Positions 42,993-64,000 of a DNA stretch of 64,000 nucleotides are shown piece by piece. Source of the DNA: Terriglobia bacterium (GTDB taxonomy: Bacteria; Pseudomonadota; Alphaproteobacteria; Acetobacterales; Acetobacteraceae). Each line of letters opens with the position of its first letter. Positions within the stretch are counted from its first letter, which is position 1. Both the position numbers and the translations under genes were made by a program. The DNA is taken from assembly GCA_023511585.1 (NCBI GenBank), contig JAIMBF010000008.1:1-64000 (forward strand). Reading direction: 5' to 3'. A model generated the notes under the pieces. It was not told where the DNA came from. It saw only the letters and a list, made by a program, of their open reading frames with translations, and made no database searches.

Positions 42993-43019
42993 GCAGAGGC
43001 TTTCGCTCTGCGGTTTTTG
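42993..43019 (+). terminator. Factor-independent terminator
   Basis: GCAGAG (42993-42998), loop GCTTTCG, CTCTGC (43006-43011), then a T5 run (43014-43018). It probably ends the rpoBC-lysE transcript and insulates the next cluster. Confidence 0.75.
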
Positions 43020-43095: not shown

Positions 43096-44304
43096 ATGTC
43101 CGCCGTTCTTGAACGTCAGCAGCAGGGTGTTCAGGCCGCCCCGTTTGCGCCGAAGGGAAACTTAGAGCTTATTCATAGGGTCGATTTCGGCCTTGGCGGC
43201 AATAGCGAGGCCTATTTGCTGGATGGCTGGAGCCATACCGAGCAATTCGCCACCTGGGCAATCGGTTCCGAAAGCATGGTTCTGCTCTCTCGGCGCCCGG
43301 AAGACCGGCACCTGGTGGTTGAGATAGATCTCCAGCCCTTTGTTGTGCCCGACTCGCTTCCCTCGCAACGGCTTGCCGTGTTGGTCAATGGCCGGCCGAT
43401 TGCGGCGCTTCGCGTGGCGGCCCGCTCGGTTATCGGGTTTGAGTTTGACGTGGGCGCGGATGAGCCCGTGATCAAACTCTGCTTTCAGCATCCGGACGCG
43501 GCACGCCCCTGCGAGCACGGCCGGAGCGAAGACCGGCGCGCCCTGAGCTTTTACTTTCGCAGCCTTCGGCTCTACCGGATGGAAACGAAAGCGGAAAGCG
43601 CATTGCCCATTCGCGTTGACGGTTTTGAGAGCGCTCGATCCAAGGCGGCCGGCGCGCAGAACCCTTCCCTTACGGAGATGTTCTTGAATTTGGAAAGCCT
43701 TGGTTGTGACTGCGAGCTCGGCATGATTCAGCGGGCATTTGATGCGGAGCCGCTCGGCTTGCTGCGTTTCGGCACTACGCCTTTGCCGAGCTTGCTTGCC
43801 ATGCTGGAGGCCGGTTTTGAAAAACTCGGCTTGCCCGAATATACCGAGGCCGAACCCGACCATCTCAATGAATATATCGTGTATGATACGGCTTACGGCT
43901 CAAGCCGGCATACCTGGATTAACAAAACGGCGTTGTCTCCTGAGCAATTGCTTGCCCGCGAACAGAAGCGCATCAGCTTTCTGAAGCGCAAGCTGCTGCA
44001 TGATCTTGAAGAAGGGGAAAAGCTTTTCGTCTTCAAGCATCACGAGCCGCGACCTGCCGAGGATATGCTGCGGCTTTCGCAAGCGCTGCGGCGGTATAAC
44101 CCGCGCAATGCACTCCTTTGGGTTGGCCCGCATGACGAGCGCCATCCCAGCACGATGGTGGAAAGCGTTCACGACGGCGTGATCAAGGCTTACATCCATC
44201 GCTATTTTCCGAAGGAATGGCAAATGCCGGATTGCCGCAACGCCTGGGTTGCGATTCTCGAACAAGCCTATCTTTTGTGGCGAACCGGGCGCGCTCGGCG
44301 TTAA
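43096..44304 (+). CDS. Two-domain protein: beta-rich N-domain plus papain-like (DUF1796-like) C-domain, copy 1
   Basis: A 402-residue soluble protein, unknown function. Residues 30-162 look like a beta-sandwich carbohydrate- or glycan-associated domain (GNSEAYLLDGW, QRLAVLVNGR, FQHPDAARPCE). Residues 193-395 resemble DUF1796/papain-like putative cysteine peptidases: SLGCDCELGMIQRAF with Cys206, AEPLGLLRFGTTPL, DTAYGSSRHTW with His272, and the EKLFVFKHHE and NALLWVG strands. Copy 2 follows 211 bases downstream and shares all of these. ATG 43096 has GGGAG upstream. No signal peptide or TM helix is seen. Neighbours FkbH and ACP suggest a role in handling a carrier-bound glyceryl group (inference). 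Confidence 0.72.
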   Translation: MSAVLERQQQGVQAAPFAPKGNLELIHRVDFGLGGNSEAYLLDGWSHTEQFATWAIGSESMVLLSRRPEDRHLVVEIDLQPFVVPDSLPSQRLAVLVNGRPIAALRVAARSVIGFEFDVGADEPVIKLCFQHPDAARPCEHGRSEDRRALSFYFRSLRLYRMETKAESALPIRVDGFESARSKAAGAQNPSLTEMFLNLESLGCDCELGMIQRAFDAEPLGLLRFGTTPLPSLLAMLEAGFEKLGLPEYTEAEPDHLNEYIVYDTAYGSSRHTWINKTALSPEQLLAREQKRISFLKRKLLHDLEEGEKLFVFKHHEPRPAEDMLRLSQALRRYNPRNALLWVGPHDERHPSTMVESVHDGVIKAYIHRYFPKEWQMPDCRNAWVAILEQAYLLWRTGRARR

Positions 44305-44396
44305 ATCCGCAAAGCGGCGCGCGGGCTCGCGGGCGCCGAACGGCCGGCGCAAACCGTGCTCCGTTCTGAGCGCGTCGCGCAAGCGAGCCGGAAAAG

Positions 44397-44426
44397 TTGT
44401 CCGTCTCTTGCGTCGGGTGGTATAAA
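44397..44426 (+). promoter_or_regulatory. Sigma-70-type promoter before copy 2
   Basis: TTGTCC (44397-44402) and TATAAA (44421-44426) with an 18-base spacer, 90 bases upstream of the second paralogue. It would allow copy 2, fkbH and the ACP to be made without copy 1. Confidence 0.5.
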
Positions 44427-44515
44427 TCGGGCAATATTTCCCGGTAAAGCCTTGGCTGCGCCGCGGTAAGTTGCGAACAGCGGGACAGCGGTGCCGAACC
44501 GCTTGGGAGTGAGGC

Positions 44516-45727
44516 ATGTCCCTAGACGTCGAGAGCCTGGAACAATCGGGGGGCAAGCAGCAGGCGGCAGAACCTGCCCCGAAACTTCAACTCGTGGAAG
44601 CCGTGGAGTTCGGCGCCGTCGGCAACAGCGCGATGTTTCAGCTTGAGGGCTGGAGTTTCCCCGAGGAATCATGGACTTGGACCGTCGGGCATCGCAGCAT
44701 GCTCTTGTTTAAACGCCCGCCGGGCAATGCCAAGTTTACCATAGAGCTGGAGCTACACCCTTACGTGGTTGCCGGTGCCGTGCCTTCGCAACGCTTGGCT
44801 GCTTCGGTAAACGGGCGAAACGTCGGCGCGCTGCATGTTTTCGGGCATTCGGTGATCGGGTTCGATTTTGAGCTCGCGGAAGGGGAAGATCGGATCACGA
44901 TATGCTTTGAACATCCTGATGCCGCGCGCCCTTGCGATTATACCGATAATCCGGACGCGCGCTTGCTTGCTTTTTGTTTTTTCAAGGCGCGGCTTTATCA
45001 AACCGAGCAGCAGAACGAAACCTCGGCTGCCGATGCGGCTTATGCGGTTTCGGAAGAGCCGCCTCCGGCTGCAAAAAATGAGAACGGCGCGCATATAGAA
45101 TTGTTCCTGCACTTGCAAAGCCTCGGCCAGGATTGCGAGTTAGGGGTTGTTCAACGAGCGTTTCATGCCGAACCTCTCGGATTGCTGCGCTTCGGCACCA
45201 CGCCGCTGCGGAGCCTGATCGCAATGCTTGAGGATCGGTTTACGAAGATTGGCGAGCCCGGCTATACCAAGGTGGAAGTCAATCCGGACGGCGAATACAT
45301 TGTTCTTGACACTGCCTACGGCTCTTTGCGGCATACCTTTGTCAAGAAAGATGACATGCTGGCCGAGCAATTGTTGGAAAGGGAGTTATCCCGGCTTGCT
45401 TTCTTGCGGGAAAAGCTCATTGAAGAGCTGGAAGAAAGCGAGAAACTTTTCGTGTTCAAGGAACCGGAACGCCAACCCGTCGAAAGCATTGTCGCGCTTT
45501 CGCAAGCATTGCGCCGTTACAACCAAAATAACGTGCTTCTCTGGGTTTCCCCTTACGCGGAAATTCATCCGCCCGCAAGCGTGGAACCGTTTGGCGAAGG
45601 GATCATCAAAGCCTATATGCCGCGCCATTTTCGCGAGCAATGGGATACCGAGGAAGCCCGCCGTACGTGGCTTGCCGTTGCCGAGGAAGCACTTGCGCTT
45701 TGGCAAGCAGGGCGGAGCCAATCATAA
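44516..45727 (+). CDS. Two-domain protein: beta-rich N-domain plus papain-like (DUF1796-like) C-domain, copy 2
   Basis: A 403-residue paralogue of the preceding gene. The same order holds: N-domain (about 32-164) with GNSAMFQLEGWSFPE, QRLAASVNGR and FEHPDAARPCD; an Ala/Pro/Glu linker (165-190); C-domain (194-398) with SLGQDCELGVVQRAF (Cys207), AEPLGLLRFGTTPL, LDTAYGSLRHTF (His273) and EKLFVFKEPE. The C-domains are more alike than the N-domains, suggesting a shared catalytic or binding job with different partners. It lies 98 bases before fkbH and has its own promoter candidate. Function unknown; a peptidase call would be premature. Confidence 0.72.
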   Translation: MSLDVESLEQSGGKQQAAEPAPKLQLVEAVEFGAVGNSAMFQLEGWSFPEESWTWTVGHRSMLLFKRPPGNAKFTIELELHPYVVAGAVPSQRLAASVNGRNVGALHVFGHSVIGFDFELAEGEDRITICFEHPDAARPCDYTDNPDARLLAFCFFKARLYQTEQQNETSAADAAYAVSEEPPPAAKNENGAHIELFLHLQSLGQDCELGVVQRAFHAEPLGLLRFGTTPLRSLIAMLEDRFTKIGEPGYTKVEVNPDGEYIVLDTAYGSLRHTFVKKDDMLAEQLLERELSRLAFLREKLIEELEESEKLFVFKEPERQPVESIVALSQALRRYNQNNVLLWVSPYAEIHPPASVEPFGEGIIKAYMPRHFREQWDTEEARRTWLAVAEEALALWQAGRSQS

Positions 45728-45825
45728 CGCCGCAGCCTGTTCGTTCGGCTCTCCGTGCCGGCAGGCTTGACGGAGCCGGCGATTTGCGGCTTGCTAGCTT
45801 GGCATAAGCGGAGAAGGGATGCGCG

Positions 45826-47721
45826 ATGCTTAGGCCCGAATTCGGCTGGCTGCCAGCGGATCTCGGGTGGAATGCCCGTATCAAGGCTCTGGAGCAGCAG
45901 GACGAGGTGAGCTGGACGGAACTTACCGCGCTCGCCAATTACCGGATCGATCTCCTGCAAACCGAGCGGCTTGACCGTCTGCTCCGGCGTCATTACGCGG
46001 ATGTGCCGCCGAAGGAGCTTGCCACGCGCCCGGTTCGGCTTGCGGTGCTTTCCTCTTCGACAAGCGCGCACCTTCTTCCCGGCATACGCGTCGGCGCATT
46101 GCGCCGTGGGATTTGGCTTTCCTGCTACGAGCCGGATTACGGCCAATATTGGCAAGAGCTTCTCAACGAAGCCTCGGCGCTTTATCGTTTCGAACCAGAC
46201 ATTATTTTGTTTGCTTTTGATGCGCGCCATCTCGCGTCCGGTTTCACGCCGCCGGGCGATGCCGAGCAGGCCGAGAGCGCCGTGAATGACGCCCTCGAGC
46301 GGCTGCGCACGCTTTGGCATCTCGCGCGCGAACGTTTGCATGCCCAGGTTTTGCAACAAACTGCCTTGCCTGTTTTGCCCCCTTTGCTCGGAGACAACGA
46401 ACACGCCATGCCGGGGGCGCCGGCGGCGCTTCTCTTGCAGCTGAATGCGAAGCTTCGTGAGATTGCAGCAAAAGAGGGCGTGAGCCTCGTCTCGGTGGAT
46501 AGCTGGGCGATGCGCCATGGGCTGGATGCCTGGCATGACCCGGTATGGTGGCACCGGGGCAAACAGGAAATCAGCCCCGCAGCCGGGCCGTTTTATGGCG
46601 ATCTGATCGGCCGCCTGCTTGCCGCCATGCAGGGACGTTCCCGCAAATGCCTCGTGCTAGATCTGGATCATACGCTCTGGGGCGGCGTGGTCGGCGATGA
46701 CGGCGTGGAAGGGCTGGTGCTCGGCCAAGGAAGCGCACTCGGAGAAGCGTATCTCGCTTTTCAGGACTATGTGCGAGCGCTTTCCGAGCGCGGGGTTATT
46801 CTTGCCGTCTGTTCCAAGAACGATCCCGACGTTGCGCGCGCCCCGTTTGAAGTGCATCCCGAAATGCGGCTGAAACTTTCCGATATTTCCTGTTTTATCG
46901 CGAATTGGAACGACAAGGCGGCAAATATCCGCACGATTGCAAAGGAACTCAATATCGGGCTCGATGCCCTTGTTTTTGCCGATGACAATCCGTTCGAGCG
47001 CGAGCTGGTGCGCAAGGAATTGCCGATGGTTGCGGTTCCGGAACTTCCGGACGATCCGGCACTTTATGCCGAATGCTTAGCCCAATCCGGCTATTTCGAA
47101 GCAATCGCGATCACGGCGGAAGATCGCGCGCGCACAAAACAATACCAAGCCAATCGCGAGCGCGCGCTGCTTCAAGAGCAGGCCACGGATCTCGATTCCT
47201 ATTTGCGCAGCCTAGAAATGCGTCTGCTCTGGCGCCGGTTTGATACCGTCGGGTTGCAACGCGTCACGCAGCTGATCAACAAAACCAATCAGTTCAACCT
47301 GACCACGCGCCGCTATACCGAGGAAGAAGTGCGCATGATGATGCAAGACCCCAATATTGTCGGGCTGCAATTCCGCTTGCTGGATCGGCTCGGCGATAAC
47401 GGCATTATTGCGGTTCTGATCGGGCGGTTGCAGGAAAACGGCGACCTTTATCTCGATACATGGTTGATGAGTTGCCGGGTTTTGGGCCGGGGCGTGGAAG
47501 AGGCAACCCTGAACGTTCTGGCATCGGAGGCGAATCGCCTCGGCGCGCGGAGATTGCTGGGTGAATATCGTCCGTCATCGCGCAACGGAATGGTTGCGGA
47601 GCACTATCCGAGACTGGGTTTTGCGCCGGTTGCTGGGGGCGAGAGCGGTGTTGCTCGGTTCGTGCTTCCATTGAACGATTATGTGCCGCGCGAAACCCAT
47701 ATCGGAATTGTGGAGGAATGA
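45826..47721 (+). CDS. fkbH: FkbH-family HAD-IIIC protein (glyceryl-ACP forming enzyme)
   Basis: A 631-residue protein. The N-terminal half resembles the SGNH-like region of FkbH proteins (VLSSSTSAHLLPG). The HAD-IIIC domain starts KCLVLDLDHTLWGGVVGDDG with nucleophile Asp279 and acid Asp281, then LAVCSKNDPDVA and VFADDNPFERELVR. The C-terminal GNAT-like domain includes INKTNQFNLTTRRYTEEEV and CRVLGRGVEEATL. Known FkbH proteins load a glyceryl unit from 1,3-bisphosphoglycerate onto the phosphopantetheine arm of an ACP. The ACP gene begins 3 bases after its stop, fitting that reaction. No methoxymalonate genes or polyketide synthase are present, so the glyceryl group probably goes elsewhere. 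Confidence 0.88.
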   Translation: MLRPEFGWLPADLGWNARIKALEQQDEVSWTELTALANYRIDLLQTERLDRLLRRHYADVPPKELATRPVRLAVLSSSTSAHLLPGIRVGALRRGIWLSCYEPDYGQYWQELLNEASALYRFEPDIILFAFDARHLASGFTPPGDAEQAESAVNDALERLRTLWHLARERLHAQVLQQTALPVLPPLLGDNEHAMPGAPAALLLQLNAKLREIAAKEGVSLVSVDSWAMRHGLDAWHDPVWWHRGKQEISPAAGPFYGDLIGRLLAAMQGRSRKCLVLDLDHTLWGGVVGDDGVEGLVLGQGSALGEAYLAFQDYVRALSERGVILAVCSKNDPDVARAPFEVHPEMRLKLSDISCFIANWNDKAANIRTIAKELNIGLDALVFADDNPFERELVRKELPMVAVPELPDDPALYAECLAQSGYFEAIAITAEDRARTKQYQANRERALLQEQATDLDSYLRSLEMRLLWRRFDTVGLQRVTQLINKTNQFNLTTRRYTEEEVRMMMQDPNIVGLQFRLLDRLGDNGIIAVLIGRLQENGDLYLDTWLMSCRVLGRGVEEATLNVLASEANRLGARRLLGEYRPSSRNGMVAEHYPRLGFAPVAGGESGVARFVLPLNDYVPRETHIGIVEE

Positions 47722-47724
47722 ACG

Positions 47725-47973
47725 ATGACGGAGGAGGAAATTCTGGCTGGGCTGACGGAGATCCTGCGCGAAACCTTTGCCGATGATCAACTGATCGTAA
47801 CGCCGGAAACCACCGCCAAGGATGTGCCCGGATGGGATTCAATCCGAATGGTTTCGATTCTGATCGCGGTCGAGGAGCGCTTCGGAATCAAGACCCGCTC
47901 GCGCGAGATCGATCGGCTCCGTTCCGTCGGCGACTTCGTGCAACTTATTCAGGCGAAGCAAAAAGCGGCGTAG
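47725..47973 (+). CDS. Acyl carrier protein
   Basis: An 82-residue stand-alone carrier with the phosphopantetheine site GWDSIRMVSIL (Ser39), where standard ACPs have DSL. Helix pattern and acidic N-terminus are normal. Its ribosome site (GGAGGAA) is in the last codons of fkbH, implying coupled synthesis and a dedicated partnership. It is too far from fatty-acid genes to be the general AcpP. AcpS encoded near the window end could install its prosthetic group. Confidence 0.9.
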   Translation: MTEEEILAGLTEILRETFADDQLIVTPETTAKDVPGWDSIRMVSILIAVEERFGIKTRSREIDRLRSVGDFVQLIQAKQKAA

Positions 47974-62884: not shown

Positions 62885-63301
62885 TTACGAAGCGTTGCCT
62901 TTTGTGATGGCTGAGATAATCACTTGCGCAAACGCGTAAGGATATTCGTCCGTCATCGTCAAGGCAATCTGCGCATCGGCATTCGGCGGGGTTAATTGAG
63001 CCAAACGCAGGGCCGCGCCTCCGGTGAGCATGATCGTCGGTTGCCCGGAAGGTAGGTTGACAACCCCGATATCGGAAAAGAACACGCCGTTGCGAAAGCC
63101 GGTGCCGAGGGCTTTTGCGGTTGCTTCCTTGGCGGCAAAACGCTTGGCGTAGGTGGCGGCGCGGATGCGTTCCGTCCGCCGTTCCGCGCGGCTTCGCTCG
63201 ATCGGGGTAAACACGCGCGCAAGAAAACGCTCCCCGTATCGCGCAATGACCGCTTCGATGCGGCGAATATCACAGATATCGGAACCGATCCCGAGAATCA
63301 T
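62885..63301 (-). CDS. acpS: Holo-[acyl-carrier-protein] synthase
   Basis: A 138-residue trimeric phosphopantetheinyl transferase. [20 protein letters not shown] with the metal Asp, and [19 protein letters not shown] with the metal Glu, are diagnostic. It converts apo-ACPs to holo form, including in principle the ACP beside fkbH. It starts 7 bases after the RelA/SpoT stop, a common alphaproteobacterial pair. Confidence 0.96.
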
Positions 63302-63308
63302 CGAACGG

Positions 63309-64000
63309 TTAACCGCGCACGCGCTCAACCTGCTCGATATTCGGAGCGCCGCGCAGCCCTGCAATAACGGAGGAAAGATGCCCGAGATCGCGCACCTCCA
63401 CATCCACCAGAACTTCGCAGAAATCTTGCTGGCGATGGGCTATCTTGAGTTGCGAAACGGTGCCTTTGTGCTTGGCGACCGCATTGGCGAGATTTGCGAC
63501 TGCCTGCGGCTCGTTCGCAGCAATCACGCAAAGCCGTGCCGTGTGCGCGGGATGATCACGCGCTAAGGCTTCCGCATCCCAATCGACATCGATAAAACGC
63601 TCGGGTGTTGCCGCGAAGCTTTCCAAAGTCGGGCAATCGGCGATGTGAATGGTGACGCCTTTGCCGGTGGTGACGATCCCGACAATCCGATCACCGGGCA
63701 GAGGATGGCAGCAACCGGCGTAATGAACGCTCATGCCCGCAATCAATCCGGTGATGGGAAGTTTCGGTTCGTCTTTGCCGCGTTTTTTGTCGCCGCGCGC
63801 GGGCAGGCCGACGAGCGGGCGCGGCGCACGCTCGGTCGGTCTCAGTTCCGGATAGGCCGCATGAACGACGTCTTTAGGGCCGATGCTGCCGTTTCCGACA
63901 GCAATGTAAAGATCATCAAGGGTTGCGCATTTGAACGTCTTCAGCGTTGTTTCCAAGACGCGTTCACTGCCGTCCAGGCCTTCCCGCCGGAAGGCCTTTG
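63309..64000 (-). CDS. RelA/SpoT family (p)ppGpp synthetase/hydrolase, C-terminal part (5' end outside window)
   Basis: About 230 residues of the C-terminal regulatory half of a bifunctional Rsh protein; the frame stays open to base 64000. The TGS-adjacent helical region ([20 protein letters not shown]), a zinc-finger-like segment with [20 protein letters not shown] and [10 protein letters not shown], and the C-terminal ACT domain ([20 protein letters not shown]) are present. It senses starvation on ribosomes in other bacteria. Hydrolase and synthetase domains lie outside the window. Confidence 0.95.

Follow-up and report, generated by a model that had tools for sequence, protein, structure and literature searches.

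We report here on an operon in a 64,000-nucleotide stretch of an Acetobacteraceae genome (GenBank assembly GCA_023511585.1, contig JAIMBF010000008.1, positions 1 to 64,000; the whole stretch is referred to as the window), in which two paralogous two-domain proteins, an FkbH protein and a stand-alone acyl carrier protein (ACP) are encoded by four forward-strand genes at 43096-47973 (Table 1). With a probability of about 0.6, we read this operon as a loader-ACP-transferase system, in which the C-terminal domain (C domain) of the paralogues is an ACP-dependent Cys-His acyltransferase that acts on a glycan, here with a glyceryl group. Going by its family, FkbH would take glycerate from 1,3-bisphosphoglycerate and place it as a thioester on the phosphopantetheine of the ACP. 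Next, the ACP would hand the acyl group over to the C domain of each paralogue, probably to Cys206 or Cys207 with the aid of His272 or His273, as genomic context and residue conservation suggest. Lastly, the N-terminal domain (N domain) would hold a cytosolic glycan intermediate, to a hydroxyl of which the acyl group would be passed; the fold of that domain and a number of domain fusions point to this step, and the product would be a polysaccharide or lipid-linked sugar decorated with glyceryl.

Results

The C domain is tightly linked to ACPs, and this genomic context is strong. A C-domain profile run against GTDB contigs found 79 loci, and linkage was counted over 116 non-identical C-domain loci. 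Around these, ACPs number 22 within 500 bp and 43 within 3 kb, against no more than 2 in the range of 3-10 kb (a density of 0.196 per kb at 0-500 bp), where the far distance bins serve as an internal control from the same genomes. FkbH domains number 17 within 2 kb and 3 farther away. The initial gene-neighbour counts are lower bounds, as the FkbH of one locus (L060) was missed there and found by tblastn at 59% identity. With this addition, L060 shares with the closest relatives of the operon, L061 and L104, the window order of C-domain gene, FkbH and ACP. Outside the Acetobacteraceae, a Nitrospirillum locus (L116) carries a gene of the arrangement N-N-C beside an ACP and FkbH.

At the level of whole genomes, FkbH was found in 79 of 200 Acetobacteraceae-type genomes, a C domain in 61 and both in 45 (odds ratio 8.7, p 8e-11, uncorrected for kinship and genome size). 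When the C gene is unlinked to an ACP, FkbH is present elsewhere in the genome (14 of 14 checked), and the three FkbH-free genomes of the same checked set have an AMP-binding ligase and an ACP beside the C gene. Furthermore, an ACP adjoins the C gene in 11 of the 16 FkbH-free C-domain genomes of the family sample. With neither gene within 10 kb of most C-domain loci, the link between the C domain and FkbH/ACP is recurrent, not obligate.

The partners of the ACP vary between loci. Among 31 C-domain loci with an ACP, FkbH stands beside the ACP in 17, an AMP-binding ligase in 11, neither in 3, and both in none, for which the chance of no overlap is ~4e-6 if relatedness is ignored. Pfam confirms four of the AMP-binding ligases at such loci. 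A tree built from 110 C domains requires 13 changes of the FkbH label and 9 of the AMP-ligase label, which indicates that these partnerships were gained or lost repeatedly. That the loader is swapped while ACP and C domain are kept is expected of a C domain that takes the acyl-ACP directly as its substrate. Seen from the side of FkbH (40 loci), an ACP is adjacent in 38, a C domain is present in 14 and an MBOAT O-acyltransferase in 9, with no locus holding both of the latter two (chance of no overlap 0.011, relatedness again ignored). Likewise, no MBOAT was found near any C-domain locus. The loci at which FkbH-ACP stands beside an MBOAT without a C domain (L157, L164, L170, L177, L182, L185, L189, L190 and L191) look like Dlt-type glyceryl systems; four of these nine share a further protein of ~350-370 aa, which gave no Pfam match in the one case scanned.

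Sequence searches of Pfam, NCBIfam and the PDB with both paralogues assigned no family. The earlier note on this DNA had described a DUF1796/papain-like domain, and of this description the fold and the Cys position of DUF1796 stand, while membership does not: neither paralogue matches the Pfam DUF1796 model (PF08795) even at E 10, and a few relatives match it weakly (E 0.14-0.28). Folded alone with AlphaFold2, the C domain of paralogue 1 reached a predicted local distance difference test (pLDDT) score of 93.4, and this model gave five viral fold matches (E up to 6.7e-4, TM score 0.49-0.60), mostly from giant viruses, of which four are named papain-like cysteine peptidase and one glycosyltransferase. 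The latter, A0A7M3UP73 of Pyramimonas orientalis virus, holds a C-domain-like fold, so that the pairing with glycan enzymes may reach viruses. An hhalign comparison of the C domain with DUF1796 proteins (E 1.1e-4, probability 56%) aligned Cys with Cys. Because the Pfam model misses the paralogues while fold and profile match, we call the modelled C domain DUF1796-like, a remote relation, without assigning it to the DUF1796 family. 'Papain-like' is to be read as a label for the DUF1796-type fold. No papain structure is among the PDB matches listed for the C domain, which does not count against such a fold. A Foldseek search against the PDB returned nothing below E 0.001. The highest-scoring VIA entry for the C domain, 2g6t (Z 7.9), is at the level of a common arrangement, and homology is not claimed.

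The C domain has a motif of its own, S-L-G-x-N-C-E-F-G-L-V-Q-R, the cysteine of which is Cys206 in paralogue 1 and Cys207 in paralogue 2, precisely as the earlier note had placed them. This position holds Cys in 133 of 134 aligned C domains and Ser in the remaining one, and the position of His272 (His273 in paralogue 2) holds His in 122. In the AlphaFold2 model, the Cys heads a helix right after the first strand and the His lies within a strand. One relative (L041:12483-14765, reverse strand) has three tandem C domains, the third with Cys replaced by Ser and His by Ala; the loss of both together is expected if they are a working pair. A subgroup of C domains (L098:4591-7902, L122:7612-10401 and L042:8854-11196) differs in the stretch ahead of the Cys (G-C-E-F-G) and carries Arg at the His272 position.

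For the N domain, the AlphaFold2 model of paralogue 1, built on 62 relatives (mean pLDDT 87.9), is mostly above 90. It superimposes on residues 32-181 of 2w5f with a VIA Z of 12.6 and a root-mean-square deviation of 2.1 over 120 residues, and its structure matches include many rows of CBM22, CBM35, CBM29 and CBM36, and Eph receptor domains too. The fold that the model gives the N domain is that of a carbohydrate-binding module, with sugar binding itself putative. In eight relatives (L121, L125, L127, L128, L129, L130, L135 and L137) the domain order is swapped, the C domain preceding the N domain.

Domain fusions point in the direction of glycans as well. The fusion partners of C domains are WcbI with TPR repeats, GT61, and sulfotransferase and methyltransferase domains; those of N domains are GT2, GT61, SGNH, AlgX and methyltransferase domains. 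One protein encoded near an FkbH-ACP pair, 1,552 aa long, combines GT2 and GT9 domains. The earlier note had left glycan, lipid and protein as candidate acceptors; we favour the glycan because of the carbohydrate-binding fold of the N domain and these fusions to glycan enzymes.

The predicted loader and its carrier are readily recognized. FkbH scores 313.5 bits against TIGR01686 (curated cut-off 146.65) and 32.2 bits against PF21211 (cut-off 27), and has all HAD motifs (DxDxT, Ser/Thr, Lys and Asp-Asp). D279, D281, T283, S330, K331, K364, D386, D387 and C550 are invariant in 47 FkbH proteins of related loci. The ACP scores 27.3 bits against PF00550 (cut-off 20.8), carries Ser39 within W-D-S-I, and its D38-S39 is invariant in 59 related ACPs. 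FkbH-ACP pairs are known from tetronate and methoxymalonyl routes, e.g. Mad7/Mad8 and Mad14/Mad12, and have been proposed to make glyceryl-ACP (PMC7489565). The genome of the window has one FkbH, three C domains and four ACP-like domains. No polyketide synthase was found genome-wide, and no FabH-type partner is present in the operon. The single full ketosynthase (439 aa) adjoins a different ACP and, from its size and setting, looks like one of fatty-acid synthesis. The third C-domain gene of this genome (L051:10011-10775 on contig C8; 254 aa, Cys and His present) stands alone: neither FkbH nor ACP is close to it, and no glycan genes are evident in its surroundings.

The layout of the operon agrees with the earlier note in all its main points: four same-strand genes, a paralogous pair (49% identity over 397 aa), an FkbH-type HAD protein with an intact DLDHT motif, an ACP starting 3 bp past the FkbH stop (47725 against 47721), and no ketosynthase partner or polyketide synthase, the absence of the latter now holding genome-wide. 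The upstream terminator was also part of that description. The hairpin and the T-rich tail after it are indeed there; terminator-like sites in the region are, however, not above shuffles (15 seen against 12.8 expected), which makes this hairpin weak evidence. The gaps are 211 bp between the paralogues and 98 bp between paralogue 2 and FkbH, and from this arrangement a single transcript for the four genes is likely. No long hydrophobic stretch occurs in any of the four proteins, which are therefore probably all cytosolic. No dehydrogenase, methyltransferase or MBOAT was called in the operon. It is flanked by what we take, from the sequence, to be a LysE-like gene on one side and a photolyase on the other. 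A gene at 62885-63403 of the window (reverse strand) reads like holo-ACP synthase (AcpS) and could give phosphopantetheine to the ACP.

Table 1. Features of the operon and their positions in the window
Feature	Position	Strand	Basis or remark
Hairpin then T-rich tail; possible terminator of the upstream gene	42993..43011	+	upstream of the operon
Paralogue 1, 402 aa, N domain and C domain	43096..44304	+	open reading frame, paralogue alignment, AlphaFold2
N domain of paralogue 1, residues 22-163, predicted beta-sandwich of carbohydrate-binding-module type	43159..43584	+	AlphaFold2, VIA
C domain of paralogue 1, residues 189-402, DUF1796-like alpha/beta, proposed ACP-dependent acyltransferase	43660..44301	+	AlphaFold2, viral fold matches, hhalign
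Cys206 codon, proposed nucleophile	43711..43713	+	residue conservation
His272 codon, proposed partner of Cys206	43909..43911	+	residue conservation
Paralogue 2, 403 aa, domain order as in paralogue 1	44516..45727	+	open reading frame, paralogue alignment
C domain of paralogue 2	45077..45724	+	Cys207 codon 45134-45136, His273 codon 45332-45334
FkbH, 631 aa: FkbH_N region (residues 71-241) and HAD-motif FkbH domain; predicted glyceryl loader	45826..47721	+	TIGR01686, PF21211
DLDHT motif of the HAD domain, FkbH residues 279-283	46660..46674	+	sequence
Stand-alone ACP, 82 aa; phosphopantetheine site Ser39 at 47839-47841	47725..47973	+	PF00550

Discussion

In the D-alanylation system Dlt, the AMP-ligase DltA, the carrier DltC and the MBOAT DltB work together. 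The proposed system resembles Dlt in that an activated acid on a dedicated carrier is destined for a cell-surface polymer, and the resemblance extends to relatives of the window operon that use an AMP-binding ligase and to FkbH-ACP pairs that occur beside MBOATs. In contrast, the loader in the window is FkbH, the transferase would be a soluble Cys-His domain joined to a domain of carbohydrate-binding type, and MBOATs are missing from the operon and from the surroundings of all C-domain loci. With the tetronate and methoxymalonyl pathways the operon shares an FkbH that adjoins a stand-alone ACP, but it lacks their polyketide synthase, FabH-like enzyme, dehydrogenase and methyltransferase. The C domain is akin to DUF1796 in fold (TM score 0.60 to viral members) and in its conserved Cys position, and differs from it by the lack of a significant Pfam match and by its own motif.

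There is precedent both for the type of enzyme and for the substituent. WcbI (PF18588), a Burkholderia capsule enzyme for which a role in capsule acylation was proposed, places Cys and His around an acyl thioester, acetyl-CoA (PMC4104973). The C domain would handle an acyl thioester in a like manner, though it forms a separate sequence family, and WcbI binds CoA; the isolated protein showed no activity (PMC4104973). One relative (L098) combines a WcbI domain and a C domain in a single protein. Moreover, glycerate does occur as an acyl substituent of a bacterial polysaccharide, namely as the L-glycerate ester of gellan in Sphingomonas (PMC9104527). We found no published account of a glycan system composed of FkbH, ACP and C domain in the open-access literature.

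We must take into account several points that weigh against the proposed acyltransferase. The majority of C-domain loci have neither ACP nor FkbH within 10 kb, and the co-occurrence expected from the earlier note is largely borne out by local ACP linkage and the genome-level odds ratio, though not by most loci. Genome size and kinship may partly account for the co-occurrence in genomes, which only the local linkage escapes. His272 is substituted in ~10% of C domains, mostly divergent ones, none of the solved structures is a good match for the C domain, and the operon, judging by the neighbouring genes inspected, lies outside any polysaccharide gene cluster. The chemistry, the acyl group and the acceptor are inferred, the last of these from the fold and domain fusions. 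The route set out in the earlier note, from glyceryl-ACP over the Cys-His domain to an acceptor bound by the N domain, fits all context tests, but it cannot be tied to glyceryl in general, with an AMP-binding ligase in place of FkbH at 11 loci.

Could the C domain release the acyl group instead of transferring it? A thioesterase or hydrolase that frees or edits the ACP-bound acyl group, or a peptidase, would equally conserve Cys and His, and DUF1796, to which the C domain is remotely related, bears in Pfam the name putative papain-like cysteine peptidase. Such an enzyme would, however, waste the acyl group that was loaded; besides, MBOAT transferases serve FkbH-ACP pairs elsewhere, and among the fusion partners of C domains are glycosyltransferases and further enzymes that transfer groups, so that we regard hydrolysis without transfer as unlikely. 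We give still less probability to a small glycerate-derived product of the operon, whether tetronate-like or of another kind, for which the C domain would act as a condensing or releasing enzyme of an unusual type. FkbH-ACP pairs do serve the tetronate and methoxymalonyl routes (PMC7489565), yet an operon devoid of the polyketide enzymes and tailoring activities listed above, in a genome with one full ketosynthase, and with an N domain of carbohydrate-binding fold, makes a poor candidate for this.

A different matter is whether the same machinery could serve a protein or lipid acceptor, with an N domain that is a beta-sandwich of general type and has a ligand other than sugar. The fold does occur in proteins that do not bind sugars, Eph receptor domains among them, and no polysaccharide cluster adjoins the operon. 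Against it stand the fusions of N and C domains, in several relatives, to glycosyltransferases and glycan-modifying enzymes, and we consider this version rather improbable. Returning to the glycan acyltransferase, there is about an even chance that the DUF1796-like C domains, found mainly in Acetobacteraceae, make up an undescribed family of soluble, cysteine-dependent, carrier-protein-specific glycan acyltransferases for which loaders can be exchanged, FkbH supplying glyceryl and AMP-binding ligases other acids, and that MBOATs take the place of the C domain beside other FkbH-ACP pairs.

This proposal can be reconstituted in vitro, as it involves four small soluble proteins. It offers a testable function for a conserved Cys-His domain with a DUF1796-type fold, the role of which was hitherto unassigned, and it places FkbH beyond polyketide synthesis. 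Furthermore, it suggests a route by which bacteria may attach glycerate, and perhaps other acids, to their polysaccharides from a carrier protein rather than from a coenzyme.

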